A stretch of 64,000 bases of DNA from Gammaproteobacteria bacterium MOLA455 (GTDB taxonomy: Bacteria; Pseudomonadota; Gammaproteobacteria; Pseudomonadales; Porticoccaceae). Both the position numbers and the translations under genes were made by a program. Below, piece after piece: positions 1-64,000 of the stretch. Position 1 is the stretch's first letter; every line of letters begins with the position of its first letter. Under the pieces are notes generated by a model. That model ran no database searches. It was not told where the DNA came from and worked only from the letters and a program-made list of their open reading frames with translations. The DNA lies in contig AZIN01000003.1 in NCBI GenBank assembly GCA_000511875.1, positions 211,034 to 275,033 of the forward strand. Reading direction: 5' to 3'.

Positions 1-60
1 AGAATGCTCAGAGTCAGTAGCTGCTAGCAACTGTTAGTGGCGAATAGGCGCTACTAACAG

Positions 61-105
61 GCTGTTCAACTACGGGCTTTTCAACTACAAGCTATTCAGC
101 CTCAG
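61..105. repeat. 15-bp tandem repeat over the rnt stop codon
   Basis: Three adjacent 15-bp units (61-75, 76-90, 91-105) share the pattern GCTNTTCAACTACNN, the third being more diverged. The third unit contains the rnt stop codon (minus strand, 92-94), so the repeat runs from the last codons into the downstream spacer. It is one of many short tandem duplications lying on gene ends in this window. The remaining bases 1-60 show no gene. Confidence 0.7.
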
Positions 106-769
106 TCTCGCTCTCAAGAGGCCAGCCGCCAAGATCTTTCCAGCGATTCACAATCCCGCAGAACAGCTCTGCGGTTTGCACTGCGTCATAGAGGGCGCTG
201 TGAGCACTGCGATTATCAAAATCCATCTTTGCCGCTTGGCAGGCTTTAGCCAATACGGTTTGGCCATAGGCTAGACCGGCGAGCGTAGAGGTGTCGAAAC
301 AGGAAAAGGGATGAAACGGATTGCGTTTTATCTGATTTCGATTGACCGCGGCGTTAACAAAACCCAGATCAAAATGGGCGTTATGGGCCACCATCACTGA
401 GCGAGTACAACCGGTGGCGCTGACCTCATGACGTATAGGTCGGAAGATGTCGCGCAGTGCTTCACCCTCTTCTTCCGGCATACGCTCGGGATCATAGATA
501 TCAATACCAGTAAATTCCAGCGCCGCTTTTTCAACTACAGCACCGGGAAAGGGATCAATATTTTTACTGTGTGTCTCTTTGATTTGGAGGTTGCCCTGTG
601 CATCCATCTCGAGAATAACCGCGGCAATTTCCAGCATGGCATCGGTGCGAGAATTAAAACCACCGGTCTCAACATCTACTACAACTGGCAAAAACCCACG
701 AAAACGCTGAGCAATATTGTTTGTGTACTCATCGTTAGCCGTTTCAGTGATGATTGGTGACATATCCAT
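92..769 (-). CDS. rnt: Ribonuclease T
   Basis: This is a DEDD-superfamily 3'-5' exoribonuclease that trims tRNA and other stable RNA 3' ends in the cytoplasm. The DEDD signature is visible: VVVDVETGG near residues 29-37 (ExoI motif with the D-x-E pair), AHNAHFDLGF in the middle (ExoII), and HSALYDAVQTAELF near the C-terminus (ExoIII, H-x4-D). About 225 residues is the normal size for RNase T. I place the start at the ATG at 769, because it forms a TAATG overlap with the pyrC stop; a TTG at 787 would extend the N-terminus by six residues. Probably co-transcribed with pyrC, a pairing often seen in gammaproteobacteria. Confidence 0.93.
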   Translation of the reverse strand: MDMSPIITETANDEYTNNIAQRFRGFLPVVVDVETGGFNSRTDAMLEIAAVILEMDAQGNLQIKETHSKNIDPFPGAVVEKAALEFTGIDIYDPERMPEEEGEALRDIFRPIRHEVSATGCTRSVMVAHNAHFDLGFVNAAVNRNQIKRNPFHPFSCFDTSTLAGLAYGQTVLAKACQAAKMDFDNRSAHSALYDAVQTAELFCGIVNRWKDLGGWPLESETEAE

Positions 770-1803
770 TAGCGGTCCATTTTCCAATTCAGAGTGGTAC
801 CAGCGCCGAGAGGAATCAATTGCGAATCATCAAACGGAATAGCTGCGGGCAGCTGCCAGGGTTGGCGTAACAAAGTAATACTTGTGCTGTTTCGCGGCAG
901 GCCATAAAAGTCTGCGCCAAACAGGCTCGCAAAGCCCTCGAGCTTATCCAGCGCGTCAGCCTCTTCAAAGGCCTGAGCATAGAGTTCAATCGCTGCATGA
1001 TGGCTAAAGCAGCCAGCACAGCCGCAGGCACTCTCTTTTTTATCCTGAGCATGGGGCGCAGAGTCGGTACCTAAAAAGAACTTCGGGCTGCCACTAGTAG
1101 CAGCCTTAATCAGTGCATGCTGATGAACATCACGCTTTAAAATCGGCAGGCAAAACAGGTGCGGCCGAATACCGCCAACCAGCATATGGTTGCGATTGTA
1201 GAGCAGGTGCTGCGGGGTAATAGTTGCAGCTACATTATCACCTGCAGCGGCGACAAACTCGGCCGCTTCCAGAGTTGTAATATGCTCAAAGATAATTTTT
1301 AACTTGGGGTAATGCTGAACCAGACCACGCAGATGGCGCTCAATAAACACCGCCTCGCGATCAAAAATATCAACCTCGCCGGCCGTGACCTCACCGTGGA
1401 GCTGCAAGACCATCCCCACTTCTTGCATAGTGGCAAGCACCTTTTGGATATTATTGAGACTGGTAACACCTGAATCTGAATTGGTGGTCGCGCCCGCTGG
1501 GTAATATTTGCAGCCATGAATAAAACCACATTCCTTTGCTGCGCGGATCTCATCAGCCGTGGTGTTATCGGTCAGATAGAGAACCATCAATGGTTCCCAG
1601 TTAGAGCCTGCTGGGCGCTGCGCCAGAATACGTTCGCGATATGCTCCTACCTGCGCTACGGTGGTCGCCGGTGGCATGAGGTTGGGCATAATAATGCCGC
1701 GACCAAAGCCTCGTGCGGCGGCAGGCACCGTCGAAGCCAGCATGCTGTTGTCACGCAGGTGAAGATGCCAATCGTCTGGTTGGATGATGCTGAGTTGATC
1801 CAT
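769..1803 (-). CDS. pyrC: Dihydroorotase, PyrC class II type
   Basis: This zinc amidohydrolase cyclises carbamoyl aspartate to dihydroorotate in de novo pyrimidine synthesis. Visible motifs are DDWHLHLRD near residues 10-18 (the first metal-binding histidines), the [13 protein letters not shown] stretch around the carboxylated lysine, LHGEV and FEHITT (metal histidines), and GTDSAPHA (catalytic Asp). At 344 residues it matches the short E. coli-type PyrC. It is followed directly by rnt with a one-base stop/start overlap, so translational coupling is likely. The ATG at 1803 starts on the conserved N-terminal methionine of the family. Confidence 0.97.
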
Positions 1804-2082
1804 TATGTTTTGTCCGCAGAGCCTGTGAGGTAGAGCATGGTGAATGCTACCGGAAACAGTGGCGGCATACGAGTATTTTACTGGATTAGCGGCGTCTTAT
1901 AGTTCCCTTCGGAATATTCTCCTTGGCCCAGCGCGCTAGGTGTTTAAATGCGGCTATTCTGCCGAGGGTTAGTAGGCCCAAATACACAGCGCTCAAAAAC
2001 CGCACGCAGAAACACTTTCCCTGCAATGTTTTTTCCCTGTGCTACTTTTATCAATACAAGCCCAGCAAAACTCAATCCTACC

Positions 2083-2808
2083 ATGTCGAAAATATTGCAT
2101 GCTTTTCAACAACACGAAAAGTCCATCAAACGGATATTCGCACGCTATTGCCGTCGCCATGAAGAGATTGAAGACTATACCCAAGAAACTTTTCTTAAAG
2201 CCTTCGCCGCAGAAACCAAGACCGACATCCAAAACCCTAAAGCCTTTTTGCTGCGCGTAGCTAAAAATCTCGCACTCAGTGAATTAAAACGAAAAGTGAA
2301 CGCCAACACAGATCACATTGAGGATTCCGGAGGAACGGAAGTCTTAACAGATGAGAGGCAAGTATCCATCGAAAACCAAATCGACGGACAGCGTAAACTC
2401 GTAGTGGCCTGCAAAGTCATTGCCAGCCTGTCAGAGCATCACCGCCAAGCACTGCTGATGCGTAAAATGGAAAAGCTTAAATTTAAGCAAATTGCGACAC
2501 AGCTAAATGTCTCGCTCAGCACCATAGAAAAGCGCGTCGCAACCGCGCTGGTGCAATGCAACACCAGATTGCGCGAAGAGGGCTACGACCCCGCAGAATT
2601 TGGGTCTGTGCTCAGCACTGGATTAAATGCAGGGTTAAGTGATGGAATAAAAGCCGAATTAGCGGCTGAAACCAACAGATTGCAAAAACCATTCTCGGCA
2701 GATATAGGTAATAGCAAACCAGAGATCGAACTAGGGATCGAGCTAGGAATCGAACTAGAGAGCGGAAAAGAGAGCGAAAAAGAGAGCGAAAAAGAGAGTG
2801 AACAGTAA
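2083..2808 (+). CDS. FecI-type ECF RNA polymerase sigma factor
   Basis: This sigma-70 family ECF factor should direct transcription of the neighbouring TonB receptor. Region 2 is seen in FARYCRRHEEIEDYTQETFLKAF and region 4 in HHRQALLMRKMEKLKFKQIATQLNVSLSTIEKRVATAL (helix-turn-helix). I start at ATG 2083 (MSKILHAFQ), which gives the usual FecI N-terminus; an ATG at 1948 would add 45 residues without family character. After region 4 there is an unusual tail of about 70 residues ending in seven 4-residue repeats (three EIEL/GIEL, then four ESEK-like) made by a 12-bp tandem repeat running up to the stop codon. The stop abuts the fecR start (TAAATG). Base use is A/C-rich, unlike the receptor gene downstream. 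Confidence 0.9.
   Translation: MSKILHAFQQHEKSIKRIFARYCRRHEEIEDYTQETFLKAFAAETKTDIQNPKAFLLRVAKNLALSELKRKVNANTDHIEDSGGTEVLTDERQVSIENQIDGQRKLVVACKVIASLSEHHRQALLMRKMEKLKFKQIATQLNVSLSTIEKRVATALVQCNTRLREEGYDPAEFGSVLSTGLNAGLSDGIKAELAAETNRLQKPFSADIGNSKPEIELGIELGIELESGKESEKESEKESEQ
2722..2805 (+). repeat. Seven in-frame 12-bp units at the 3' end of the sigma factor gene
   Basis: Seven consecutive 12-bp units fill 2722-2805, and the next codon is the TAA stop at 2806-2808. The first three resemble GGAATCGAACTA (Gly-Ile-Glu-Leu) and the last four GAGAGCGAAAAA (Glu-Ser-Glu-Lys). The array is exactly in frame and lies beyond the conserved sigma region 4. Confidence 0.95.
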
Positions 2809-4077
2809 ATGACAACTGACACCGACAGCATAATCAGCTTTCCAGATAGCAAGGAAACCGAAGCCCAGGCCGCACTGTGGATAATGCGTGCCGAAGACAA
2901 CGACATGAGCCCCGCCCAGCAACAAGAATTTCAGACCTGGTTAACCAGCAGCGACCAACACCGCGAAGCCTACACAAGGCTTGCCACACTCTGGGGCAGC
3001 CTAGACATCCTCGAAGAACTCAACGACCATGCCGCCGCCGTTGGCCATCAGCAAAGCCAAATAAAAAACATCAAAGCCAACGGTCCAACCCTCTGGAAAA
3101 GACTTATCGGCCTGCGCTCGTTTATCTCTGCCAGAGCCTTCACTGCCAGAGCCTATAGTGTCAGAGCCTTGAGCGTAAAAGCCTTAAGTACCAGAGCTTA
3201 TAGCATCAGCGCATTTGCCACCATCGCCCTTATCGGCATACTCGGCCTCAGCTACCAGATAATTAACAACCTAAACCAGCTCCACCAAGGCAGCTACACA
3301 ACCGCCCTCGGCGAACAGCAAACCATCAACCTGCCCGACGGCTCCACCATACAGATCAACACCAACAGCCAAATCGACGTCTCCTACACAGACAGCGCAC
3401 GCACCATCCGCCTAGTCCAAGGCGAAGCCTTCTTCGATGTCGCGCCCAACAAACAAAAACCCTTTTCAGTCTACGCAGGCAAAGGCTCTGTCACCGCCGT
3501 TGGCACCGCCTTCAGAGTATTTTTAAACAACGAAAAAATCGACGTCATGGTCGAAGAAGGCAGTGTCGCACTGGCCAGTCACCCTAGTGACAGTATTTAT
3601 AGCGAGAGCAACTCTAGCGGTAGCACTTCAGGCAGTAGCACCTCAAACAGTAGCGCCCCAAACAGTAGCACCCCGAGCGGCAGCAACCTAACTGCAACTA
3701 ACAGTATTGCCCAAGCCAACAACCAACCCAAAGCACCCCTAGGCATAGTGACCGCAGGGCAAAAAGCCATATTCGATCAAACCGTCGAAAGCCTCGAGAT
3801 GGTCGCGCCCGCCACCATGCAGCGCAAACTCTCATGGCGCCAAGGCAGACTCGCCTTCGCCGGCGAACCCCTCTCTCTCGTCGTTGCCAGCGTAAGCCGC
3901 TACACCGGCGTCACCATCGACATCGACGACCCAGGTCTGCGCCAGCTACCCATAGCCGGCAGCTTTAATGTCGGCGAAGTCGACGCCATGATCGAAGCCC
4001 TGGAAATAATGATCGACCTACGCATCGAACGTACCGGTCCCAAGCGCGTGCGCATTTCAAAGCCAGACAATATTTAA
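2809..4077 (+). CDS. FecR-type anti-sigma/signal transducer
   Basis: FecR-family inner-membrane regulator that relays receptor occupancy to the ECF sigma factor encoded just upstream. The order is an N-terminal cytoplasmic FecR domain (AALWIMRAEDNDMSPAQQQEF near residues 24-44), a single membrane segment (about 137-153, FATIALIGILGL), the periplasmic FecR domain (LPDGSTIQINTNSQIDV ... VQGEAFFDV, about 185-255), and a C-terminal STN-like domain (LAFAGEPLSLVVASVSRYTGV, about 345 on). At 422 residues it is longer than typical FecR because of two inserts made of 15-bp repeats: five-residue units just before the membrane helix and a Ser-rich linker near residues 268-292. The stop lies inside an 18-bp direct duplication. 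The target is inferred to be the receptor at 4294. Confidence 0.93.
   Translation: MTTDTDSIISFPDSKETEAQAALWIMRAEDNDMSPAQQQEFQTWLTSSDQHREAYTRLATLWGSLDILEELNDHAAAVGHQQSQIKNIKANGPTLWKRLIGLRSFISARAFTARAYSVRALSVKALSTRAYSISAFATIALIGILGLSYQIINNLNQLHQGSYTTALGEQQTINLPDGSTIQINTNSQIDVSYTDSARTIRLVQGEAFFDVAPNKQKPFSVYAGKGSVTAVGTAFRVFLNNEKIDVMVEEGSVALASHPSDSIYSESNSSGSTSGSSTSNSSAPNSSTPSGSNLTATNSIAQANNQPKAPLGIVTAGQKAIFDQTVESLEMVAPATMQRKLSWRQGRLAFAGEPLSLVVASVSRYTGVTIDIDDPGLRQLPIAGSFNVGEVDAMIEALEIMIDLRIERTGPKRVRISKPDNI
3121..3225 (+). repeat. 15-bp tandem units just before the FecR membrane helix
   Basis: Seven 15-bp units run from 3121 to 3225 in frame, encoding FISAR, AFTAR, AYSVR, ALSVK, ALSTR, AYSIS and AFATI. 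The consensus is small residue, aromatic or Leu, variable, Val/Ala/Thr, Arg/Lys. They sit on the cytoplasmic side immediately before the membrane helix and load it with positive charge. A similar pentapeptide series occurs at 63301-63375 in an unrelated lipoprotein. Confidence 0.9.
3610..3684 (+). repeat. 15-bp tandem units encoding a Ser-rich linker in FecR
   Basis: Five in-frame 15-bp units (starts at 3610, 3625, 3640, 3655, 3670) encode NSSGS, TSGSS, TSNSS, APNSS and TPSGS. They form a flexible linker between the periplasmic FecR domain and the C-terminal STN-like domain. Confidence 0.85.
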
Positions 4078-4095
4078 AAGCCAGACAATATTTAA
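4060..4095 (+). repeat. Exact 18-bp direct duplication carrying the fecR stop codon
   Basis: AAGCCAGACAATATTTAA occurs twice back to back, at 4060-4077 and 4078-4095. The last three bases of the first copy are the fecR stop codon. The second copy is untranslated, so the duplication created an extra in-line stop. Confidence 0.97.
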
Positions 4096-4288: not shown

Positions 4289-4293
4289 ATCGT

Positions 4294-10937: not shown

Positions 10938-10943
10938 ATTATT

Positions 10944-10971
10944 CAGAAAATCAGGGTCAGAAAATCAGGGT
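10944..10971. repeat. 14-bp tandem duplication after the S9-like gene
   Basis: CAGAAAATCAGGGT occurs twice in succession (10944-10957, 10958-10971), just after the S9-like stop codon. The same motif also opens the 154-bp repeat copies at 10959 and 11547. Confidence 0.85.
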
Positions 10972-11112
10972 CAGACTCGAATTTAAATCGGTAATTCGGT
11001 ATTGCCTGAAAATTAAAAAGACAAAACCAAGGAATAAACCATTTCCAGGAAGGAAATTATGCAAACTGAAATCGTACTAGAAGACTGTCCCCACTGTGGT
11101 GGCGACGCTAAA
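10959..11112 (+). repeat. 154-bp direct repeat, copy 1
   Basis: This copy matches 11547-11700 over 154 bases with only four differences seen by eye. It comprises about 100 bp of upstream region plus the first 18 codons of the Lar-like gene. The copy ends abruptly at 11112, where IS3-type transposase sequence begins. Confidence 0.95.
11059..11112 (+). pseudogene. Truncated first copy of the Lar-like zinc-ribbon gene
   Basis: ATG 11059 begins the same 18 codons as the intact gene at 11647 (MQTEIVLEDCPHCGGDAK), with the same ribosome binding site (AGGAAGG). After the GCTAAA at 11112 the sequence changes to transposase-like DNA, so only the first Cys-x2-Cys knuckle is left. The rest of the gene is not found downstream, so insertion was accompanied or followed by deletion. 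Confidence 0.85.
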
Positions 11113-11546: not shown

Positions 11547-11700
11547 AGAAAATCAGGGTCAGACTCGAATTTAAATCGGTAATTCGGTATTGCCTGAAGA
11601 TTAAAAAGACAAAGCCAAGGAATAAACCATTTCCAGGAAGGAAATTATGCAAACTGAAATCGTACTAGAAGATTGCCCCCACTGTGGTGGCGACGCTAAA
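11547..11700 (+). repeat. 154-bp direct repeat, copy 2 (leads into the intact Lar-like gene)
   Basis: This is the partner of 10959-11112. It starts at the AGAAAATCAGGGTCAGACTC motif and ends 18 codons into the intact gene. It probably carries the promoter and leader of that gene. Confidence 0.95.
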
Positions 11701-15885: not shown

Positions 15886-16011
15886 TTGCGCAATTATGGC
15901 TGTTTTGCCCATCTGACCGACGCCCAAGACTTTATTGTGCACGAATTGGGCGAGCGTTGATGCCAGACCACGTCACAATTAGCTATTAGATGCTCCTATC
16001 GGTCTCCCTCC

Positions 16012-16143
16012 TGTCATATTGAGCATAGCGAAATATCTCTAGATCCTTCACTTCGTTCAGGATGAAACTCTTTGGGCTGGATCAGGATGGCAATTTTGGC
16101 TTGGGCTAAGGAGACAGTTTTTTAAGTCTGGATCAGCATGACA
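16012..16143. repeat. Possible small dispersed repeat (MITE/REP-like)
   Basis: This noncoding stretch starts with TGTCATATTGAGCATAGCGA and ends with the roughly inverted GATCAGCATGACA, and contains CACTTCGTTCAGGATGA-type palindromic words. The wording resembles dispersed 'TGTCATTCTGAGC...' repeats in many bacterial genomes. A related phrase occurs at 52251-52279. The rest of 15886-16210 has no gene that I can support. Confidence 0.45.
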
Positions 16144-16210: not shown

Positions 16211-16987
16211 ATGAATATTACTCTGCTCACCAACCGTGACCTCCCAAGCCATGTGGCGCTTACTCAGTTGGTTGGTGTTCTTAGTCATCACAAGCTTTCG
16301 ATTTTTATTTCGGAAAAGGTCGGAGGTGATGTTGAGCTTCCGCAACCATTATTGGATATGGCGGCGTTTGAGAGAGAGGTGCTGGCTGATGGTCGACCTA
16401 GTTTTGATGAACTGGCGGCGTCTGCGGGTTGTCCGCTGCAAGGGTTTGCGGATATTGGCAATCGGGTTAATGGCCCAGAGGGTGTTGCGCGTATTCAGGC
16501 GACTGAGCCTGATCTGATTATTTCTCTGCGCTTTGGGTTGATTATCCGCGATGCGGTAATCGCGATTCCCAAACATGGGGTGATCAATCTTCACTCTGGT
16601 CTATTGCCGGATTACCGTGGGGTGATGGCAACCTTTAGAGCCATGCTCAATGGCGAGTCTGAGATTGCCTCGACGCTGCACTATATTCAAGACAGCGGTG
16701 TCGACACTGGCGATATTATTTCGACGGTGGCAGTTGCCGTAGAGCCGGATAAGTCCTATCTGTTAAATGTGCTGAATTTGTATGTTGGTGGCTGTCAGCA
16801 GATTGCTCAGGCGGTGGCGGCTATTGAGGCTGGCCAGCCGTTAACCGCAGTGCGGCAGCAGGGGCCGGCTGGGTATTTCAGCTTTCCTGATGAGGCGGAA
16901 CTGGCGCAATTCTCAGCTCTTGGCTATAGGTTGTTTACAGGGGCTGATACCGGTGGCGCAGATAGTCTTGTTAAGGCTTTTAATTAA
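16211..16987 (+). CDS. Formyltransferase-fold protein (Fmt/PurN-like N-terminal domain)
   Basis: A 258-residue protein related to methionyl-tRNA formyltransferase and other folate-dependent formyltransferases. The core signature GVINLHSGLLPDYRGVMATFRAML (Asn-x-His-x2-Leu-Leu-Pro-x-Tyr-Arg-Gly) and SGVDTGDII (catalytic Asp region) are present. It lacks the C-terminal tRNA-binding domain of Fmt and the 'GGGSN' start of PurN, so it is neither. Relatives act on sugar nucleotides or amino groups, but no substrate can be named. The stop codon sits at the start of a degenerate 12-bp repeat (AATTAAGCTGTT, AATCAAGTTATT, AATGAAGTGACA from 16982). It is followed by argG. Confidence 0.8.
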   Translation: MNITLLTNRDLPSHVALTQLVGVLSHHKLSIFISEKVGGDVELPQPLLDMAAFEREVLADGRPSFDELAASAGCPLQGFADIGNRVNGPEGVARIQATEPDLIISLRFGLIIRDAVIAIPKHGVINLHSGLLPDYRGVMATFRAMLNGESEIASTLHYIQDSGVDTGDIISTVAVAVEPDKSYLLNVLNLYVGGCQQIAQAVAAIEAGQPLTAVRQQGPAGYFSFPDEAELAQFSALGYRLFTGADTGGADSLVKAFN

Positions 16988-17115
16988 GCTGTTAATCAAG
17001 TTATTAATGAAGTGACAATTCGACCTCTCAACAATACTCGCCACAACCAATACTAAATCCCCCGCCATTAGGGTAAAATTCGCGCCTCGTTTTCTCCAGT
17101 AAAGGATTGTGCAAC

Positions 17116-20841: not shown

Positions 20842-21754
20842 TTTTTGGAGTATCTGGATCAGTGTAATAACCTTCGTCGTTATATTGGGCAGCGTCTGGT
20901 TGTTGATGGCCAATCGCAAAATCGACGTAAAAGGCGATTTGGCCGAGGGCGAAACCCCTAAAACCGGGCACGTCTACGATGGCATTGAAGAGTATGACAA
21001 CCCACTGCCGGCCTGGTGGTTCTGGATGTTTATTGCCAGTGCGGTGTTTTCTCTCGTCTATCTTCTGCTCTACCCTGGACTGGGAAACTACAAAGGTCTG
21101 CTTGGTTGGACTCAGGAGGGTCAGTGGCAAGAGCGAGTGGATAGCGCCAACCTTGTACTCGACGAGCAATACAAAATTTATTCAGCCACCGCGATTGACG
21201 ATTTGGCCGCCGACCCTGCAGCACTGCGAATGGGGCGTCGTTTGTTTAATAATAATTGCTCACTGTGCCATGGTATAGGTGGAGTTGGCGCCAACGGATT
21301 TCCTGATCTCAGTGATAGCGACTGGCTCTATGGTGGTTCTGCCGAGGCCATTATTCACTCCATAACCCAGGGTCGACAGGGCGTCATGCCCGCTTGGGGT
21401 GCGGCTTTGGGCGATCGCGGCGTCGAGGATGTGGCCGACTTTGTTATGAGCCTCAGTGGGTTGCCCTTTGATATGCAGCGCGCCGCGCGCGGTGCCAGCC
21501 AGTACCAACTGTTTTGTGTCAGTTGCCACGGCCGAGACGGCGGCGGTATACAGGCCCTGGGTGCGCCCAATCTCAAAGATAATATCTGGCTCTACAATCA
21601 AGCTGATACCAGTTTGTTGGAAAATATCCGCCACAGTATTCGAAATGGTCGCAACGGTGCTATGCCAAACCATAGAGAAAAACTGCGTCCGGAGAAAATT
21701 CATCTTATCAGTGCCTATGTTTACAGCCTGTCTCAGACTAACCAACAGCCCTGA
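20834..21754 (+). CDS. ccoP: cbb3-type cytochrome c oxidase dihaem subunit III
   Basis: Dihaem electron-entry subunit. The start at ATG 20834 gives MSDFWSIWISVITFVVILG, a normal CcoP N-terminus; an ATG-less upstream extension would only run through ccoQ. Two haem c sites are seen (CSLCH and CVSCH), each followed by its Met-ligand region. Also visible are the membrane helix WWFWMFIASAVFSLVYLLLYP and the HVYDGIEEYDNPLP signature. The last codons and stop lie in the first of seven 18-bp tandem repeats that fill the gap to ccoG. Confidence 0.96.
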   Translation: MSDFWSIWISVITFVVILGSVWLLMANRKIDVKGDLAEGETPKTGHVYDGIEEYDNPLPAWWFWMFIASAVFSLVYLLLYPGLGNYKGLLGWTQEGQWQERVDSANLVLDEQYKIYSATAIDDLAADPAALRMGRRLFNNNCSLCHGIGGVGANGFPDLSDSDWLYGGSAEAIIHSITQGRQGVMPAWGAALGDRGVEDVADFVMSLSGLPFDMQRAARGASQYQLFCVSCHGRDGGGIQALGAPNLKDNIWLYNQADTSLLENIRHSIRNGRNGAMPNHREKLRPEKIHLISAYVYSLSQTNQQP

Positions 21755-21868
21755 GCGGATAAACAGCCCTGAGCCAATAAACAGCCCTGAGCGGGTATAT
21801 AGCCCTGAGCGGGTAAACAGCTCTGAGCGGATAAACAGCCCTGAGCCAATAAACAGCTTGAGCCAATC
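21744..21868 (+). repeat. Seven 18-bp tandem units between ccoP and ccoG
   Basis: Units of 18 bp (consensus AACAGCCCTGAGCGGATA, with GCCAATA and GCGGGTA variants) start at 21744, 21762, 21780, 21798, 21816 and 21834, plus a 17-bp unit at 21852. The ccoP TGA stop (21752-21754) lies in unit 1, and every later unit repeats a TGA in the same frame. There are no spacers, so this is not CRISPR. CTGAGC-rich units could also form weak hairpins. Confidence 0.97.
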
Positions 21869-23355: not shown

Positions 23356-23922
23356 ATGGATCATCGGTCAACTGATAATAGTCTTCAGGAGCAGCCTCCC
23401 TGGTATCGCCAATTTTGGCCATGGTTCTTGATTGCGCTGCCCCTGTGCGTGGTTATCGCGGGTTTAAATATGCTCTATATAGCCCTCAAATATCCTCATA
23501 GTATGGTTGATGACGAGTACTACAAAGAGGGCCTGGCGATTAATCAGTCTCTGGATCAAGACCGCCGAGCTGTCCAGTTAAACTTATCAGCAGAGATTAT
23601 TTTTCGGCCATTGAACGGCAGCGATACTACGCAGCTAGAGGTCAACCTGTCAGGTCTGGAGAGCTACCCCGCGGAGTTAACCCTGTTGCTACTGCACCCC
23701 GGCAGTCGGTCGCTGGACCAAAATCTGGGTCTAAAGCAACTTGCGGCGGGGCGCTACAGCGCCCAACTTACTGGACAATATCAACATCGTTACTATTTGC
23801 GCCTGCAGCCGATCGATAAACGTTGGCGCTTAAATGGAACAATTGATTTTCAGGATGGGGGTGGAACGGCCACGAGCGAATTAACAGCCATGAGCGAATT
23901 AAAGGCTCTCAACGCAAAATGA
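23356..23922 (+). CDS. ccoH: FixH/CcoH family protein
   Basis: Inner-membrane protein needed for cbb3 oxidase assembly. One membrane helix (WPWFLIALPLCVVIAGLNMLYIALK) is followed by the family motif MVDDEYYKEGLAINQSLDQDR and a periplasmic beta domain. Its C-terminus contains two in-frame 18-bp units (TATSEL, TAMSEL) and a third diverged one. The stop overlaps the ccoI start by four bases (ATGA). Confidence 0.92.
   Translation: MDHRSTDNSLQEQPPWYRQFWPWFLIALPLCVVIAGLNMLYIALKYPHSMVDDEYYKEGLAINQSLDQDRRAVQLNLSAEIIFRPLNGSDTTQLEVNLSGLESYPAELTLLLLHPGSRSLDQNLGLKQLAAGRYSAQLTGQYQHRYYLRLQPIDKRWRLNGTIDFQDGGGTATSELTAMSELKALNAK
23866..23919 (+). repeat. 18-bp in-frame repeat at the ccoH 3' end
   Basis: ACGGCCACGAGCGAATTA (23866-23883) is followed by ACAGCCATGAGCGAATTA (23884-23901) and a diverged third unit up to the TGA stop. 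It encodes repeated six-residue units beyond the conserved FixH domain. Confidence 0.85.
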
Positions 23923-26486
23923 CTAAACGCGCCTCTGTTCATCAGTCCTGCTATCACTGCGGCCTTGATGTGCCGCTAAATAGTGATTTCAGTCTGAACA
24001 TAGAGGGCATCCGTCGCGCCATGTGTTGCCCTGGCTGTGCTGCAGTCGCCGGGACTATTTTTGGAAATGGCCTACAAAGCTTCTATACATTTCGCTCAGC
24101 ACCCAGTGCTCAGGGTGTAGCCAATAGCGGCCTCGACGTTGAAGAAAATCCCTATGCAGATTGGGATCTAATCGACATCCAGTCTGACTATATTAGTCAC
24201 ACAGATCAGGGACTGCAGAGTATTAGACTCTATATAGGCAATATTACCTGCGCCGCCTGCACCTGGCTGATCGAACAGCATCTGGGAAAATTACCCGGCA
24301 TAGATCGTGTCGCCATCAACGGCACTACTCGGCGAGGTGAAATTACCTGGATGGCAGAGAGCATTAGTCTCAGCGAAATTCTTCGCGCCATTAAGCAGAT
24401 TGGCTATGAGCCCAGCCCCATAGACCACGACAGCAAGCTCTCCGCAACAACCGACGAATCTCGTCAGCTGTTGCTGCGGCTTGGGGTAGCGGGCCTGGCC
24501 ATGATGCAGACAGGCATGGTGGCGATTGCGCTCTACGCCGGGTCATTTCAGGGGATGCAGGCGGAGTGGCAAACTCTGCTGCGATTCATCAGCCTGTTAT
24601 TTGTCACCCCAGTGGTGTTCTATTCGGCCCAGCCATTTTTTACCAGCGCCTGGCGCAGTTTGAAAATAGGTCATCTAGTGATGGATGTACCCGTAGCCCT
24701 TGCCATAACTCTGGCCTACAGCGCCAGTCTGTGGGCAACCTTGCGCGGTGGTGGCGAAGTCTATTTCGATTCGATCACCATGTTCAGTTTCTTTTTATTG
24801 CTCGGCCGGTTTGCTGAGCAGCGTATTCGCGATAAAAATTTACTGCTATTAAATCGTGGCACAGAGCGACCGCCAGTGGTGACCCAAGTTTTTCCCGCAG
24901 ACAGCGCCCAGGTGGCTAAGGCTGACAAACAGGTACCGATTAAAAGTCTCTCGGTGGGTGATTTTATTCGCGTCGATGCCGGGCAAATTATTCCCTGCGA
25001 TGGACTGATTGAAGAGGGTGCAAGTCAGATTAGCGAGGCGCTTCTCACCGGTGAATCGCAGCCCCAGAGCAAACAGGCTGGGCAGCCTGTCTATGGGGGA
25101 ACTGTCAATGGTGCCAACCCACTGCGGATAAAAGTCAGCGCCATCGGTGAGGCTAGCTGTCTTGCCTCCATTGTGAAGCTCGCCGAAAGAGCAGCCCTGG
25201 ATAAACCTCAGTGGGCAATGGTGGCAGACCGATTAGCCAGTTATTTTATTGCCCTGCTGCTGTTAATCGCGGGGGCAGTGGCGACCTATTGGTGGTTCCA
25301 TGAGCCTCAGCGAGCACTGTGGATTACCCTCTCGGTACTGGTGGTTACCTGCCCCTGCGCTCTGTCATTGGCTACCCCCACGGCACTCACTGTGGCGAGC
25401 AATATCTTACGTGCCAGAGGGTTTTTAATTAATCGCATGCATGTATTGGAAACCTTGGCGAGCGTTGATCAGGTGGTATTTGATAAGACTGGCACACTAA
25501 CCGAGGGAAGGTTAAAGCTGGTATCTGTGAATGTCAGTCCCACAGCTGATGAGATCCCCGAACAGCAAATGGTTGCCTGGGCAGGCTCACTGGAGCGCGG
25601 TAGTCAGCATCCTATTGCCATTACTCTGTTGAATCATCCAGACCTAGACCTAGACCTAGCATCGGCGGTTACAGAGCAGGACTTTGTGATTGGCTCTGGT
25701 GTCAGCGGCAAGATAGACACTGAGATATTTTATTTCGGCAGACCTGCTTGGGTACGTGAGATAGCTGGGCTCTGTGATATGCCCGATATGTCTGGGATCT
25801 GTTTAAAGGACGCTCAGAGTAAGAGTAACAATCGGGCTGAGAGCCAGTCTATAGACGTCGCCTTAGCGCGCAATGGTGAATGGCTCGCGACTCTGTCTTT
25901 TTCCGACCAGCTGCGCCCAACGGCAGTGGCCGCGGTTAACCAGTTACGCCAGCGCGGCCTTAAAGTGTCGCTGCTATCTGGTGATCCATCCCCAGGAGCG
26001 GCGCAGATTCTTAAGCCCCTAGCACTTAATGACTGCCAGCTTTCACTGCAGCCCCAGCAAAAACTCGCCTCTATTCGAAAACTGCAACAGTCCGGCACGA
26101 AAGTACTTATGGTCGGCGATGGGATTAATGATGTGCCCGTTCTGCAGGCCGCAGATGTCTCTGTAGCCCTAGGTCAGGCCAGCGACCTATCGCAGATTCA
26201 TGCTGACGTAACTCTGCTCAGTGGCGACCTCAGGGCGCTGCCAGAGGCCATAGTTACGGCAACTCAAACTCGGCGCATTATTAAGCAAAATATTATCTGG
26301 GCCATCGCCTATAACCTCGTGGCACTGCCTCTGGCAGCGGCGGGTTATGTGGCGCCCTGGGCTGCGGCTATTGGTATGTCCGCCAGCTCGCTGTTGGTGA
26401 TGCTCAATGCGCTGCGGCTGGCCAGAGGCGCTAAGTGCTCAGGATGGATGGCTGCTAATGGAAAGCCTGTAATGGAAAGCCTGTAA
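23919..26486 (+). CDS. ccoI: Copper-exporting P-type ATPase for cbb3 oxidase assembly
   Basis: CcoI/FixI moves copper to the periplasmic side for oxidase metallation. The order is an N-terminal zinc-ribbon-like region (CYHCGLDVP, CCPGC), a heavy-metal-binding domain (CAACTW, Cys111 and Cys114), membrane helices, the actuator loop (TGESQPQ), the CPC metal site (TCPCALSLATPTAL), the phosphorylation motif DKTGTLTEG, an HP motif (SQHPIA) and the hinge GDGINDVPVLQAADV. A DLDLDL triplet (18 bp of GACCTA repeats) sits near residue 578. The gene ends inside a 14-bp tandem triplication shared with the ccoS start. Confidence 0.96.
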   Translation: MTKRASVHQSCYHCGLDVPLNSDFSLNIEGIRRAMCCPGCAAVAGTIFGNGLQSFYTFRSAPSAQGVANSGLDVEENPYADWDLIDIQSDYISHTDQGLQSIRLYIGNITCAACTWLIEQHLGKLPGIDRVAINGTTRRGEITWMAESISLSEILRAIKQIGYEPSPIDHDSKLSATTDESRQLLLRLGVAGLAMMQTGMVAIALYAGSFQGMQAEWQTLLRFISLLFVTPVVFYSAQPFFTSAWRSLKIGHLVMDVPVALAITLAYSASLWATLRGGGEVYFDSITMFSFFLLLGRFAEQRIRDKNLLLLNRGTERPPVVTQVFPADSAQVAKADKQVPIKSLSVGDFIRVDAGQIIPCDGLIEEGASQISEALLTGESQPQSKQAGQPVYGGTVNGANPLRIKVSAIGEASCLASIVKLAERAALDKPQWAMVADRLASYFIALLLLIAGAVATYWWFHEPQRALWITLSVLVVTCPCALSLATPTALTVASNILRARGFLINRMHVLETLASVDQVVFDKTGTLTEGRLKLVSVNVSPTADEIPEQQMVAWAGSLERGSQHPIAITLLNHPDLDLDLASAVTEQDFVIGSGVSGKIDTEIFYFGRPAWVREIAGLCDMPDMSGICLKDAQSKSNNRAESQSIDVALARNGEWLATLSFSDQLRPTAVAAVNQLRQRGLKVSLLSGDPSPGAAQILKPLALNDCQLSLQPQQKLASIRKLQQSGTKVLMVGDGINDVPVLQAADVSVALGQASDLSQIHADVTLLSGDLRALPEAIVTATQTRRIIKQNIIWAIAYNLVALPLAAAGYVAPWAAAIGMSASSLLVMLNALRLARGAKCSGWMAANGKPVMESL

Positions 26487-26498
26487 TGGAAAGCCTGT
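26457..26498 (+). repeat. Three exact 14-bp units at the ccoI/ccoS junction
   Basis: AATGGAAAGCCTGT is present three times without gaps (26457-26470, 26471-26484, 26485-26498). The ccoI TAA and the ccoS ATG overlap as TAATG at the unit 2/3 junction. Because 14 is not a multiple of three, each unit shifts frame, and the previous junction also holds a TAATG in another frame. Confidence 0.97.
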
Positions 26499-26692
26499 AT
26501 CTGCTAATTCCCATCTCCGTGATCTTTATTGTTATCGCCATAAGACTGTTTTTTTGGGCGGTGAATTCCGGTCAGTACGACGATCTCGACAGTGAAGGCG
26601 AGCGCATCTTATTTGATCAGGCGTCTTCTGTGGATGAACTAGAACAATTAGAGACGCTAGACAAAAAAGAGCAGCTGGACAAACCCCAATGA
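26486..26692 (+). CDS. ccoS: cbb3 oxidase maturation protein
   Basis: A small membrane protein needed to load cofactors into the oxidase. It has the typical N-terminal helix (LYLLIPISVIFIVIAIRLFFWAVNSGQYDDLDSEGERILFD) and a charged tail of LEQLETLDKKEQLDK character. It shares one base with ccoI and four bases with the next gene, so the run is tightly coupled. Confidence 0.93.
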   Translation: MESLYLLIPISVIFIVIAIRLFFWAVNSGQYDDLDSEGERILFDQASSVDELEQLETLDKKEQLDKPQ

Positions 26693-34522: not shown

Positions 34523-35278
34523 TTAGCTAATATGACCTGTGGTTCTGATGCGCTTGGCTCCGACAACCGGACGATCTTTCTTCGCATCGGCGCGGCGTTT
34601 AAAAGCCGCGTCGATGTAATTTTTACCCGCAATCAACAGGCCGGTTACCAAGAATGCACCCGGGGGTAACACTGCGATCAAGAAGCTGTAGTTCTCGCCG
34701 AAGGGCTGCAACATCCAACCGTTGGCAACCGGGCCAAACAGCAGGTGCATGCTGGCGAATAGCGTGCCCTGGCCAAACAGTTCGCGAATCGCGCCTAGCG
34801 CGACCAAGACCAGTAAGAAGCCCAGTCCCATCATCAAGCCATCAAGAGCAGCTAAGCCTACATGGTGTTTGCTGGCAAAGGCTTCAGCGCGGCCAAGGAT
34901 GGCACAGTTAGTGACGATCAGCGGGATAAAAATACCTAGAATCTGATAGAGGTCATAGGTGTAGGCTTTCATTAATAGTTCGGCGCAGGTGACAAAGGCG
35001 GCGATAATAATGACAAAGGCGGGCAGTCTGACGGCATCGCTAACATGGTTGCGAATCAGTGAGACTATGGTGTTAGAGCCGATTAGTACCGCCATGGTGG
35101 CAAGACCCAAACCCAAAGCGTTGACTACACTGCCGGTGACCGCCAGCAGCGGGCACAGCCCGAGCAGTTGTACCAGCGCCGGATTATTCGTCCAGAGGCC
35201 GTTTTTGGTGACTTCGGCAATGCTGGGGCCTTCAGTAGTGACCTCGGTAGTAGCCTCGGTAGTAACGTCGCTGTTCAT
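34523..35278 (-). CDS. rsxE: Rnf/Rsx electron transport complex subunit E
   Basis: Integral membrane subunit of the ion-translocating Rnf complex, which couples electron transfer between ferredoxin-like carriers and NAD(H) to ion movement, or reduces SoxR. Typical sequence: [30 protein letters not shown] and [15 protein letters not shown]. The N-terminus carries three threonine/glutamate units ([12 protein letters not shown]) from a 12-bp repeat right behind the start codon. Its start overlaps the rsxG stop by four bases. Confidence 0.95.
35231..35278 (-). repeat. 12-bp tandem units at the rsxE start
   Basis: On the plus strand the units are TTCAGTAGTGAC, CTCGGTAGTAGC and CTCGGTAGTAAC (35231-35266), followed by a diverged unit with the start codon. 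They encode the repeated TTEV/TTEA residues before the conserved RsxE region. Confidence 0.85.
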
Positions 35279-43321: not shown

Positions 43322-44578
43322 ATGAAAATAACTTTTCTTTTTTGTTTTATCTTGCCGGTTTTAGTCAGCTGCGGCGGCGGTGGCAGTAGCTCAACCCCAA
43401 CCTCCACCGGCGTCTTTATTGATAGCCCGGTTATCAATATTGGCTACAGAACCGAGACCCAAAATGGTGTCACCAATTCCCGCGGAGAATTTAAGTATTA
43501 CCCTGGTGAGACGGTGACCTTTTTTATCGGTGATCTCGAGTTCCCATCGGTACTCGCCGATGAAAGGGTTACGCCTCTGGATATGGCCGATACAGATGAT
43601 ATTTCTCATCCGATGGTTGTCAATATAGCCCGCTTGCTCCAGACCCTGGATAAAGACGGCGACCCGACTAATGGCATCACCATCGCCGATGCGGCCAGAG
43701 CTGTTGCTGTTCAATTGGATTTTGATCTTCCCCTAGCAACATTTGAACGCTCAAATGCAGTGATAACAATGATATCCAATGGTGGTCAAGATGACCCTAG
43801 TTCAGAGCTTATTAATACTGTGGCAGCGCTTATTAACCTTGTGGCAGGTGTCGCTTCTTCTGGCGGGTCTTTTTCTGACCCGCAGCCCATAACAGTCGAT
43901 TCGTTAATTGGGACTTGGCAAATTGCTAGCCCAACCCAGCTGGATTTCTTTGTCTTAAGTTTTTTTGCCGATGGCACCTATGTGCATGCAGAGGTTGATG
44001 AGACTACGGACAATGCGATATCTGGAATGGAATGGGGGGATTTCACCTATGCAGGGCTTGGAGATACCACCGCGACTCAGTTATTTGATAACAATGGCGA
44101 CGCAGGGTTGAGTGATTTTAGTGGGGGCAATGGCCCGTCGCTGAAAATTCTGCCTCAGGCTTCAGGCTCTCTACTATTTGGTCCAGATGATAATAATGAT
44201 GGCATCAGTGATGGCGCTTTTGGGTTAACCCAAATTGATTCTGGGGGTCTTTTAGGCACCTGGACAAGTACCACCACCGATGCAGAGTTACTGATGCTTA
44301 CGTTCTTTGACGACACTTACTTCCATGGGGAAGTCGATCGCAATGATCCGGCGCTAATGTCAGGTATGGAAATTGGTACTTATTCTCACGATGGCAGCAC
44401 GGGCCTGATGGCAGTCAGTCAAACCTTTGATAACAACGGCAATGCTGGGTTTACTGACTTCGTTGGTGCGGGCGCACCGAATCTGTTTGTTCATGTGTCA
44501 GGGGATACCTTGACCCTAACCATGGACAATGATGGCGACAGTCTTATAGATGAGACGATTGAGTTTACGCGGCAATAA
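43322..44578 (+). CDS. Lipoprotein with two related C-terminal beta repeats, function unknown
   Basis: A secreted lipoprotein: signal peptide ending in a lipobox (LPVLVSC, Cys17) followed by GGGGSSS, typical of outer-membrane lipoproteins. Residues about 30-125 match a domain common in marine gammaproteobacterial lipoproteins (GVFIDSPVINIGYRTETQNGVTNSRGEFKYYPGETVTFFIGDLEFP). The C-terminal half has two related units of about 100 residues (LIGTWQI ... ADGTYVHAEVDET ... SGMEWGDFTY ... FDNNGDAGLSDF and LLGTWTS ... DDTYFHGEVDRN ... SGMEIGTYSH ... FDNNGNAGFTDF). Repeat DNNGDAG/DNDGDS segments could bind calcium. No enzyme motif is seen. Confidence 0.8.
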   Translation: MKITFLFCFILPVLVSCGGGGSSSTPTSTGVFIDSPVINIGYRTETQNGVTNSRGEFKYYPGETVTFFIGDLEFPSVLADERVTPLDMADTDDISHPMVVNIARLLQTLDKDGDPTNGITIADAARAVAVQLDFDLPLATFERSNAVITMISNGGQDDPSSELINTVAALINLVAGVASSGGSFSDPQPITVDSLIGTWQIASPTQLDFFVLSFFADGTYVHAEVDETTDNAISGMEWGDFTYAGLGDTTATQLFDNNGDAGLSDFSGGNGPSLKILPQASGSLLFGPDDNNDGISDGAFGLTQIDSGGLLGTWTSTTTDAELLMLTFFDDTYFHGEVDRNDPALMSGMEIGTYSHDGSTGLMAVSQTFDNNGNAGFTDFVGAGAPNLFVHVSGDTLTLTMDNDGDSLIDETIEFTRQ

Positions 44579-58596: not shown

Positions 58597-58606
58597 TGCT
58601 TGCTGT

Positions 58607-60963: not shown

Positions 60964-60964
60964 G

Positions 60965-61899
<935 letters not shown>

Positions 61900-61977
61900 C
61901 GTCTATGTTTCAAGTTGTGGAATTCTTACGCCATTGTAGAGGCAAATGGATTTAAACAGAATCAGAGGTTTAACGGC

Positions 61978-63267
61978 ATGATCAATCAATTATTAATCAC
62001 TGCGGGCAGAATACCCCAGCAACTGGTCAACAGTGGCCAGTTTTTGGTCTATGCGGTGCGTCGTTTTCTCGGCGATGGCTGCCCCCAGAGTGCCGCAGCG
62101 CTCACCTATATGAGTCTGTTTGCGGTGGTGCCCATGCTGACTCTGATGTACAGCATGTTCTCCCTGGTGCCTGCATTCCAGGAGCTCGGCGGTCAGGTGG
62201 AGGAATTTATCTTCTCCAAATTTTTGCCCAGCAGTGGTCAAGAGATTACTCAGTACCTGAGTGAGTTTTCCAATCAGGCGCGCAAGCTTAGTGTCGCCGG
62301 TGTGGCAATTATCTTGGTCACTGCCCTGTTGATGTTGAGTAATATCGAAAAAACCTTTAATCATATCTGGGCCACCACTGGCGGGCGCAAAGGCTTGGCC
62401 GGATTTTTGGTCTATTGGGCGATCTTGAGTCTTGGACCTCTATTGCTCGCCGTGGGCATGATTATGAGTACCTATCTGATGTCACTGCGCCTGGTGGTGG
62501 CCGAGGTCGACAGCTTAGGTGTGGTGGCGCTGCTGTTTAGTTATCTGCCCTGGTTGCTGACTTGGCTGGCTTTTACCCTGCTTTATGTGGCCGTGCCCAA
62601 CTGCAAGGTAAAAGTGGTTTACGCGCTGTTTGGCGGTCTGATCACAACACTGTTGTTCGAGACCGCCAAGGCGTTATTTGGACAGTTGGTCGCCAATTCC
62701 ATTTATACCAACGTTTATGGTGCATTCGCCGTTATTCCGTTGTTTTTGCTTTGGATTTATCTGCTCTGGGTGCTGATTTTATTTGGCGCCGAACTGGTGC
62801 GCAGTCTTGAGACCTTTCGATATGAAGGTCGCGACGCAGAACTGCCGGATGCCCTCGCCGTGCTGATTATTTTGTGGCAGTGTTGGCGTCGGCAGCAGAA
62901 GGGTCGCAGCCTGTCGGACCGCGCCATGAGCATTGTGGGCCTCGATGTTGAACAGTGGCGACGCCTGCGCAATATGTTATTGAGTCAGCGTATTTTAGAG
63001 AAAACCGCCAGTGGTCAATATGTGATGATTCGCGATGCGGAAACTATCAGGTTGGCAGATATCAATGGCTGGCTGGGCCTGGGATTCAGCGGTGGGGATA
63101 GAGTGATGAGTGAAAAACTGGCCAACGCCCACCCTTGGTTGGAGACCTATGACAGGTTGATGCGTGAGAATAGTCAGATGACTGAGCAGAATATGACCCT
63201 GAGCTTGCAAAAGTTGTTTGCCACTAATAGTCATTCTGCGGATACTGACAACTCGAATGAGAATTAG
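61978..63267 (+). CDS. yihY: YihY/UPF0761 family inner-membrane protein
   Basis: A 429-residue BrkB/YihY-type protein with about six helices. QSAAALTYMSLFAVVPMLTLMYSMFSLVP, FNHIWATTGGRKGLAGFLVYWAILSLGPLLLAVG, and YGAFAVIPLFLLWIYLLWVLILFGAELV are signatures. An older 'RNase BN' label for this family is wrong. I start at ATG 61978, nine bases after AGAGG; an ORF start at 61855 would overlap arsC on the other strand. The C-terminal extension (about residues 290-429) has a winged-helix look. Confidence 0.9.
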   Translation: MINQLLITAGRIPQQLVNSGQFLVYAVRRFLGDGCPQSAAALTYMSLFAVVPMLTLMYSMFSLVPAFQELGGQVEEFIFSKFLPSSGQEITQYLSEFSNQARKLSVAGVAIILVTALLMLSNIEKTFNHIWATTGGRKGLAGFLVYWAILSLGPLLLAVGMIMSTYLMSLRLVVAEVDSLGVVALLFSYLPWLLTWLAFTLLYVAVPNCKVKVVYALFGGLITTLLFETAKALFGQLVANSIYTNVYGAFAVIPLFLLWIYLLWVLILFGAELVRSLETFRYEGRDAELPDALAVLIILWQCWRRQQKGRSLSDRAMSIVGLDVEQWRRLRNMLLSQRILEKTASGQYVMIRDAETIRLADINGWLGLGFSGGDRVMSEKLANAHPWLETYDRLMRENSQMTEQNMTLSLQKLFATNSHSADTDNSNEN

Positions 63268-63291
63268 ACTTTTATATTAAGGTGATTGTGT

Positions 63292-63786
63292 ATGTTCAAA
63301 GATTTCTCGGTAAAAAGTTTCTTGGTAAAAAGTTTCTTGGTAAAAGGGCCCACAGTGAAAGCATTTTTAGTCAGCCTGATTTTGGTTGGCTGCAGCGGTG
63401 ACACTGGCTACAAATTGATCGATGGCAGCAGTCACAGTTTCAATAATGACCAAGGCAAATATACCCTGGTTAACTATTGGGCCGAATGGTGCCAACCCTG
63501 CCGAGTAGAGGTGCCGGAGCTCAATGAACTGGCTGCTGAGCACGCTGATCAGCTAACTGTTTTAGCGGTCAACTTTGATAATGAGCAGGGCCCTAAGCTC
63601 CTCGAGCAGCTGCAGAAAATCGATATACAGTTCCCGTCGCTGGCAGTAGATCCCCGTGCTAAATGGAGTCTTGAGCGACCCAAGGTGTTGCCCGAGACAC
63701 TGATAATAAATAGTGATGGCGAATTGGTTAAACGTTTAATTGGTCCGCAAACCTTGGAATCGCTGATGGCCTTCATAGTCGAGTGA
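63292..63786 (+). CDS. TlpA-like thioredoxin-fold lipoprotein
   Basis: A 164-residue lipoprotein with a thioredoxin domain: lipobox LILVGC, then YTLVNYWAEWCQPCRVEVPELNELAAEH (active C-x2-C, CQPC) and the cis-Pro region RPKVLPETLII. It probably faces the periplasm and acts as a thiol-disulphide reductase or oxidase. The start at ATG 63292 is seven bases from AAGGTG. Its signal region is preceded by five-residue repeats (DFSVK, SFLVK, SFLVK, GPTVK, AFLVS) from a 15-bp tandem array, making an unusually long basic n-region. Confidence 0.88.
   Translation: MFKDFSVKSFLVKSFLVKGPTVKAFLVSLILVGCSGDTGYKLIDGSSHSFNNDQGKYTLVNYWAEWCQPCRVEVPELNELAAEHADQLTVLAVNFDNEQGPKLLEQLQKIDIQFPSLAVDPRAKWSLERPKVLPETLIINSDGELVKRLIGPQTLESLMAFIVE
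63301..63375 (+). repeat. 15-bp tandem units in the TlpA-like signal region
   Basis: Five 15-bp units from 63301 in frame; units 2 and 3 are identical (AGTTTCTTGGTAAAA). The encoded pentapeptides end in Val-Lys and lie directly before the hydrophobic core, like the FecR array at 3121-3225. Confidence 0.9.
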
Positions 63787-63880
63787 TCTCCGTACCTCAA
63801 GTGGGTATAGGTGCCTGTGCTCCTGCCCTTTAAGCTTCAGATGAGTAAATCACCCCCCGGTATAAAGAGAGAGGTATAGG

Positions 63881-64000
63881 ATGAAAGATCTACGCAAATT
63901 TTACATCAATGGTCAATGGATTGAGCCGTTGCAGGCACATGATCTGGTCGTTGAAAACCCTGCTACAGAAGAGTCTGTGGCTATTATTTCCCTCGGTGCA
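63881..64000 (+). CDS. Aldehyde dehydrogenase family protein (5' part only)
   Basis: The first 40 codons, cut by the window end. MKDLRKFYINGQWIEPLQAHDL, then VVENPATEESVAIISLGA, is the standard N-terminal strand of NAD(P)-dependent aldehyde dehydrogenases (FYINGxW ... NPATxE). GAGAGAGG lies upstream. The specificity cannot be judged. Confidence 0.85.
   Translation, partial: MKDLRKFYINGQWIEPLQAHDLVVENPATEESVAIISLGA

Follow-up and report, generated by a model that had tools for sequence, protein, structure and literature searches.

Why should so many genes in one bacterial genome end, or begin, in a short tandem repeat? The question is raised by a stretch of 64,000 nucleotides (the window) from Gammaproteobacteria bacterium MOLA455 (Porticoccaceae, probably SAR92-like; contig AZIN01000003.1, positions 211,034 to 275,033; G000:C3:211034-275033 in our numbering of the host genome, G000, which comprises 2.6 Mb in 4 contigs), for which an initial annotation had listed ten gene-boundary repeat sites. 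Tandem Repeats Finder (TRF) recovered all ten, eight with a score of at least 50, one with 46 and one with 40. The sites exist, but their list was slightly selective: at our standard cut-off (score of at least 50, period 9–60) the window holds 11 merged arrays, eight of them within 30 nt of a stop and three, left off the list, intragenic (3128–3170, 3620–3672 and 43803–43847; periods 15, 15 and 21). We consider these arrays, with a probability of about 0.6, to be short-period minisatellites generated by tandem duplication, a process that runs at an unusually high level in some members of the host's Porticoccaceae genus, is perhaps sequence-biased, and is filtered by selection.

For the host, the window and 56 further stretches were sampled, amounting to 1,169,476 bases or 45% of the genome. 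This sample was compared with 400 kb each from two genomes of the same genus (G018 and G019) and one of the same order (G027), and with 300 kb of Escherichia coli K-12 as a further control. Gene ends came from a purpose-built hexamer-model caller. Of the 52 typed coding-sequence stops in an annotated piece of E. coli, it recovered 49, adding none and placing 42 starts exactly; one of the three missed stops was lost to its own edge filter. The host sample yielded 100 arrays. A stop alone (±15 nt, no start) is involved in 31, vs. 4.5 ± 2.1 expected from random placement (never more than 11 over 300 draws), a start alone in 11 (expected 4.9, 2.3-fold), and both kinds of codon in 2 (expected 3.0). 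A further 19 are intergenic at other positions (expected 7.5, 2.5-fold), and 37 are intragenic, where 80 were expected; TRF thresholds of 40 and 60 gave the same picture. In G018, 17 of 44 arrays are at stops only (expected 2.0).

Zone densities sharpened this location bias. With the trailer defined as the DNA up to 90 nt past a stop (up to 120 nt in the shuffle control), the host carries 38 arrays in 47,476 bases of trailer, 6 in 37,061 bases of leader-only DNA, 9 in 58,171 bases of other noncoding DNA and 47 in 1,026,768 bases of coding DNA, corresponding to 8.0, 1.6, 1.55 and 0.46 arrays per 10 kb, respectively. The same four classes gave 10.9 (18 in 16,578 trailer bases), 1.5, 2.6 and 0.47 in G018; 1.5 (2 in 13,316), 0, 1.5 and 0.23 in G019; 0 (0 in 14,730), 0.7, 0.8 and 0.06 in G027; and 0 (0 in 12,083), 0, 0.4 and 0.20 in E. 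coli, and the host trailer density differs from those of the last three genomes with p=0.007, 6e-5 and 3e-4, respectively. The arrays are specific to a lineage: per 100 kb, there are 8.6 in the host and 11.0 in G018 vs. 3.2 in G019, 1.2 in G027 and, from 6 arrays in the 300-kb sample, 2.0 in E. coli. The gene-end enrichment that had been anticipated is strong in the sampled 45% of the genome: 665 host trailers hold 46 arrays, while ten dinucleotide shuffles of them yielded 0–1. Repeats had been described on start as well as stop codons, and only the stops bear this out, since starts are no richer in arrays than intergenic DNA in the host (leader-only 1.6 vs. 1.55 per 10 kb elsewhere in noncoding DNA). 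Both start cases of the window lie just past an upstream stop (35275 and 63267); an account of start arrays as by-products of upstream stops fits these two cases and fails in the host sample, where arrays stand at 11 of 401 starts with a nearby upstream stop vs. 25 of 592 starts without one.

At a score of at least 40, host arrays peak 0–90 nt past the stop, while within genes the last 90 nt are slightly raised (0.008–0.014 of bases in arrays vs. 0.005 deeper) and the first 90 nt barely so (0.005–0.007). Many trailer arrays start a few bases ahead of the stop's end, and their first copy includes the stop; the protein is therefore unchanged, which is the simplest reason for the stop being a permitted place for duplication. 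At the same threshold, and with mixed-position arrays set aside (4 in the host, 1 in G018), the period is divisible by three for 83 of the 97 coding arrays in the host and for 20 of 20 in G018, vs. 32 of 71 and 12 of 40 noncoding arrays, respectively. This frame rule is plain purifying selection on the reading frame and, because units of 3n bp prevail in genes but not outside them, selection filters the positions of arrays. A different, protein-level kind of repeat is seen at three loci (L101:19023-19229, L103:8437-8567 and L139:13868-14057), where long coding repeats with 54- and 60-bp periods, of lysine/alanine/proline or glycine/cysteine type, lie near gene ends.

The units also share a core more often than chance allows. 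This was assessed in the host, G018 and G019 only. Of the 132 host units, 17 contain AAGAGC/GCTCTT, roughly 13-fold the null obtained from 1000 draws of random array-free segments of the same class. It ranks first of all 6-mers in the 64 units that are not entirely genic (10 units, null 0.67, 0/1000 draws) and, jointly with AGAGCC, in the 68 coding ones (7 units, null 0.65, 0/1000 draws). In the noncoding units of G018, AGAGCT ranks first (7 of 36, null 0.39) and AAGAGC fourth (5 of 36, null 0.41), after two strings of a TGTCATCC-type repeat; AAGAGC is present in 3 of 8 coding units of G019, a small set, and core-bearing arrays were found in another genome of the genus, G001, at L249, L253 and L255 through a match to one host array. 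The Poisson tails (host noncoding 3e-9, host coding 6e-6, G018 AGAGCT 2e-7, G018 AAGAGC 7e-5) precede correction for 2080 6-mers and assume independent arrays, an assumption that is unsafe because one 18-bp family recurs and the ccoP and ccoH arrays have a common unit. In coding rows, 17 of 20 cores lie on the same strand as the gene, two of these in E. coli, the pooled set behind the strand counts having included six E. coli loci (L207–L212). We infer that the core marks duplication-prone sequence. A general 3' signal was considered and rejected: the 3'-flank strings listed are mainly T-runs or terminator-like, with some of TAACAG/AACAGC type, and AAGAGC is not among the 24 such strings listed per genome and length.

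Turnover was followed at 25 arrays (score of at least 44) in the window, L034 and L108, of which 18 have a spanning ortholog, 11 of them in G001, the closest species, whose DNA is 81–92% identical to that of the host over the longer matched pieces. Three of these 11 are alike in the two genomes (ccoP, ccoI/ccoS and L108:10170), two differ in length (ccoH and rsxE), three face other repeats in G001 (L108:3079, 6450 and 6567, the latter two corresponding to one G001 segment), and three are without a counterpart array (L108:3550, 6220 and 7211). In comparison with G002 and G016, the fecI, fecR-end, tlpA-like, rsxE and several L108 arrays are absent. The stop of one and the same gene, at L108:3079, is covered in the host by an array with a 20-bp period and in G001 by a different one with a 15-bp period, while G002 lacks an array there. 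The initial annotation had put forward an unchanged copy number in distant relatives as the mark of old, selected sequence; copy number is mostly not conserved. Arrays of the same sort are present in other assemblies as well (G018, G001 and L118, a metagenome-assembled genome [MAG] of Porticoccaceae). Pieces of same-genus genomes contain 4 trailer arrays in 1,572 bases (G001), 1 in 2,625 (G002), 1 in 432 (G016) and 0 in pieces of 328–480 bases each from G003, G007, G011 and G017, although these counts are biased, and the pieces too short to weigh, because they were fetched as orthologs of host regions.

The lineage-specific arrays, their fast turnover and a frame kept only in genes agree with the initial proposal of a repeated mutational process combined with selective tolerance. 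In such a process, duplications of mostly 9–22 bp would arise both inside and between genes, perhaps with a preference for some sequences (the AAGAGC/GCTCTT core, in a minority of units), and selection would then purge the majority of those that disrupt a reading frame, promoter or ribosome site. The survivors would be units of 3n bp in genes and units of any length just past stops, where a duplication that keeps the stop in its first copy would leave the protein unaltered. Arrays would later shift in copy number and decay, so that sister species would come to differ. By analogy, the chemistry is likely to be slippage or short-homology misalignment in replication or repair.

Several observations weigh against this reading. 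Trailers exceed the remaining noncoding DNA, leader included, by a ratio of 5.1 in the host (p=1e-8) and 4.8 in G018 (p=5e-5), and tolerance alone may be insufficient to account for such an excess. Array-free trailers are about as divergent as other noncoding DNA in the comparison with G001 and moderately more so in that with G002: when regions containing arrays, and positions that have a stop as well as a start within 60 nt, are classed apart, their mismatch is 0.220 vs. G001 (leader 0.231, far 0.258; 18 intergenic regions) and 0.441 vs. G002 (leader 0.307, far 0.359; 28 intergenic regions). The core is missing from 115 of 132 host units, and there is little sign of it in the coding units of G018 (2 of 15) and the noncoding units of G019 (1 of 8), both small sets. 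In 39 motif-bearing arrays, the boundaries show only a weak alignment to the motif, with p=0.017 and 0.043 for the start and p=0.12 and 0.052 for the end. By eye, array ends had looked convincingly locked in phase with the motif, an idea that was dropped after this test. At L108:3079 the host and G001 arrays have a common TAAAGAGC string, so their independence is unproven, and the two may derive from one seed. Finally, none of the three repair genes that we searched is missing, and G019 has all three too, yet few trailer arrays.

Those genes are mutS, polA and recJ, to which the search was limited (mutL, sbcCD, other exonucleases and polymerases lay outside it). In 9 of 9 genomes, that of the host among them, MutS, PolA and RecJ gave matches over the cut-off that are uninterrupted by stops. 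A loss of repair genes, which the initial annotation had proposed to check for, finds no support in these three; a simple mutator by their loss is out, and with it a mismatch-repair-defective mutator by mutS loss. Loops of 12–18 nt are in any case generally regarded as too large for the mismatch-repair pathway. The host genome also contains, at G000:C1:141731-142576, a second short sequence of 5'-nuclease type that matches the N-terminal portion of PolA below the family cut-off; all 7 other same-genus genomes searched have it too, and it is not listed for G027.

If tolerance does not suffice, duplication could itself act mainly just past stops, making the stop zone a mutational hot spot; one such setting would be the point at which ribosomes come off the mRNA and transcription pauses or terminates (R-loops, replication-transcription conflict). 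The roughly fivefold trailer excess in two species and the different arrays at the same gene end in two sister species would fit, as would host convergent intergenic DNA, in which the repeat fraction is 0.09–0.11 within 60 nt of a stop and at most 0.002 beyond 90 nt. In G018, however, the convergent fraction is 0.137 at 90–150 nt and 0.052 farther out, with no drop until past 150 nt; the AAGAGC core is also found in intragenic arrays, so formation is not limited to stops; and trailers are somewhat more indel-tolerant as well (non-array indel events are 1.4-fold denser there vs. G001 and 2.9-fold vs. G002, from only 4 and 12 trailer events, respectively). We regard targeting of this kind as possible, though on the unlikely side. 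A bolder version, in which an enzyme or replication step would recognise AAGAGC/GCTCTT and multiply the surrounding 9–22 bp, mostly just past the stop where ribosomes no longer cover the transcript, with the same gene end being re-hit in sister species, strikes us as quite unlikely. Some arrays might instead be copies of a short family that moves or is copied between sites, as MIRU or REP elements do, and is amplified on arrival. With up to 3 mismatches allowed, the 18-mer TAAAGAGCCCTCAGCGGA occurs 13 times in the host sample (10 in 3 arrays), 4 times in G018 (1 array) and 25 times in G019 (4 arrays), a family of 8 arrays over three genomes, and is absent from the G027 and E. coli samples, while 12 shuffled patterns per genome gave means of 0.1–0.7 and a maximum of 3. 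The ccoP and ccoH arrays have one common unit family, and 29 of 2145 unit pairs have common strings of at least 8, vs. 17 in one shuffle. This last excess is modest, and most units therefore look unrelated, so that a single mobile unit behind every array finds no support; the ccoP-type variant AACAGCCCTGAGCGGAT discriminates less well, with 20 hits in the host (9 of them not in arrays), up to 12 in shuffles and 4 in E. coli, all outside arrays; and few single copies lie outside arrays, five host patterns giving mixed noncoding hits of 2, 5, 16, 17 and 6 against expectations of 6.7, 1.1, 9.9, 11.0 and 3.9 (one below and four above the intergenic expectation). An origin by dispersal, even of part of the arrays, seems unlikely to us. 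The earlier argument that the units differ and are hence not mobile nevertheless goes too far, in view of the core excess in coding and noncoding units, the ccoP/ccoH unit and the 18-bp family.

Post-stop arrays could also be kept for a function: they might bind proteins, signal the end of transcription or serve as mRNA tails. The core excess in units is compatible with this, and three species have kept the ccoI/ccoS array at some 3 to 4 copies; against it, the core of noncoding arrays lies on either strand (14 on the strand of the nearest-stop gene vs. 12 on the other), orthologs of the same gene lack the array or have a different one, and a strict terminator scan detects no association (1 of 46 array trailers vs. 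30 of 619 others), although it picks up so few terminators that it says little. We judge this to be improbable. That the pattern is an artefact of annotation, low complexity or assembly is hardly credible, even though gene calls came from our own caller and 45% of the genome was sampled: the caller agrees with the annotated E. coli stops and adds none, the shuffles yield next to no arrays, and the arrays recur in the other assemblies named above.

Among known systems, we claim no more for these arrays than membership in the minisatellites. Like bacterial minisatellites and variable-number tandem repeats, they consist of head-to-tail units of 9–60 bp in at least about two copies, keep the frame in genes, and vary in copy number between related species (ccoH 2.1 vs. 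5.1; rsxE by one unit). They differ in being dense, concentrated past stops and, in a minority, endowed with a sequence core; the E. coli sample has no minisatellite in its post-stop zone (12 kb). REP/BIME elements, palindromic units with an associated RAYT transposase, sit between genes, often in trailers. That location is shared, but these elements are dispersed conserved palindromes in more than 100 copies, as described in the available text of PMC2817692, and not locally made arrays of varied units. The TAACTGA direct repeats of Beggiatoaceae are likewise lineage-specific, intergenic and present at many sites per genome, yet the available account describes one fixed heptamer mostly just upstream of starts (PMC4679880), whereas the host units are longer (period of at least 9), varied and past stops. 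MIRUs are, in the available portion of PMC12548453, short repeats at gene boundaries, at start codons with translational coupling; they share the boundary location, but appear to be one mobile family, whereas host units mostly differ (the 18-bp family accounts for only 3 host-sample arrays) and it is stop zones, not starts, that are enriched in the host. In the accessible part of a survey of small variable segments (PMC2884548), minisatellites made up 18 of 1,037 variable E. coli loci, with a longer minimum unit (20 bp).

The closest parallel that we have seen is the tandem repeats of the archaeal Borgs, which, in the available text of PMC9879509, are independent, fast-evolving and lineage-restricted, lie in and between genes, have a unit length divisible by three in all genic cases and in 14–38% of those between genes, and are in about half of cases intergenic or placed with the first unit within a gene end; their authors suggest a seed sequence. 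The likeness extends to the frame rule (all genic units there vs. the 83/97 and 20/20 coding arrays here), to fast independent origin and to first units in gene ends. However, Borg units are perfect and A-rich, whereas many host arrays have mismatched copies, and an A-enrichment of our arrays was dropped as a candidate: the unit consensus has an A fraction of 0.369, but trailer base counts barely differ (0.302 in arrays vs. 0.284 in other trailer DNA). The host arrays also sit on a bacterial chromosome, and the AAGAGC core is unmentioned for Borgs in what is available of that report.

Our literature search turned up no report of such arrays in SAR92/Porticoccaceae. About 7% of the sampled host trailers (46/665) bear a kind of array that is lacking in that zone of the 300-kb E. 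coli sample, and the lineage is therefore a natural case for separating the making of minisatellites from their survival. Selection can be read directly from the frame rule and the stop-zone peak, while the AAGAGC excess and a gene end with different arrays in sister species make sequence- or position-directed duplication testable. Arrays that lengthen or alter protein tails (fecI, ccoH) offer a simple route to new C-termini.

Site by site, the window illustrates this range; gene names are those of the initial annotation, and ten proteins were checked against Pfam (ccoI, ccoS and rsxG are outside that set). On the minus strand, an array over the rnt (RNase T) stop (57–98; 15 bp × 2.8; TRF 56; RNase_T domain) starts 7 nt ahead of the stop's end and extends 35 nt beyond it, and no spanning ortholog is present among the fetched loci. 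All following sites except rsxE are on the plus strand. Two adjoining 12-bp arrays occupy the last codons of a fecI-like sigma factor gene (2724–2804; TRF 56/78/80), in frame and reaching to the stop, with Sigma70 domains in the product; in L067 (G016) the array is absent between anchors (gap 80 vs. 207 nt). The fecR gene (FecR domain) carries three arrays: one of 15 bp, in frame, whose unit contains AGAGCCTTCA (3128–3170; TRF 58), absent in L067; a second in-frame one of 15 bp (3620–3672; TRF 71), where L062 (G016) has a different 12-bp array between anchors; and one across the stop (4054–4095; 18 bp × 2.3; TRF 77), covering −24 to +18 relative to it and absent in L062. The third intragenic array (43803–43847; TRF 62) has a 21-bp in-frame unit that contains AGAGC. 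A degenerate 12-bp repeat at the formyltransferase stop (16980–17013) is weak, with a TRF score of only 40.

In the cco cluster, the first unit of an array contains the ccoP stop (21744–21857; 18 bp × 6.3; TRF 165; FixP_N and cytochrome domains), and G001 has 6.4 copies. The array in the last ccoH codons (23865–23902; 18 bp × 2.1; TRF 62; FixH domain) has 5.1 copies in G001, a 54-nt difference that is in frame. The ccoI stop and ccoS start are spanned by an array (26456–26499; 14 bp × 3.1; TRF 88) with 2.8 copies in G001 and 4.0 in L118; the G001 copies have common variants distinct from those of the window, which suggests homogenisation or re-duplication. The nearest ccoI relatives in named assemblies are in L118 (78% protein identity, best segment), and an uncultured Pseudomonadales MAG (L119/L120) reaches 91–94%; its contig numbers and match positions coincide with those of G001, and the two are probably one assembly. 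On the minus strand, a 12-bp repeat lies in the first rsxE codons, directly past the preceding gene's stop (35242–35264; TRF 46; Rnf-Nqr domain), and its region is 12 nt (one unit) shorter in G001 and 42 nt shorter in G002. The array in the first codons of a tlpA-like thioredoxin gene (63298–63345; 15 bp × 3.1; TRF 80; AhpC-TSA/thioredoxin domains) lies 30 nt past the preceding stop and is absent in L198 (G002).

The array 5 nt past the stop of an S9 peptidase gene (10943–10975; 14 bp × 2.4; TRF 66; DPPIV_N and Peptidase_S9 domains) continues into GGGTCAGACTCGAATTT (10943–10987). Because similar sequence with a 15-bp repeat is present at L132:13195-13242 (G018), with a shorter match in L066, it may be part of a dispersed element or the edge of a mobile one rather than a local array. 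An intergenic segment of inverted-repeat type (16008–16065; TGTCAT...GGATGA; RNA fold −13.2 kcal/mol) looks like a dispersed REP-like element: it has many short matches in G018 (five consecutive at C1:1857655-1857989) and also in G011 and G019, although BLAST of the fetched loci gave no further copy. The 5,476-base contig L037 (G000:C2) consists of an rRNA operon and two tRNAs. A small protein encoded at 11647–12033 matches the restriction-alleviation family Lar (PF14354); the DNA of its gene is 92% identical in G011 and matches at six places in G019, so the gene may be mobile.

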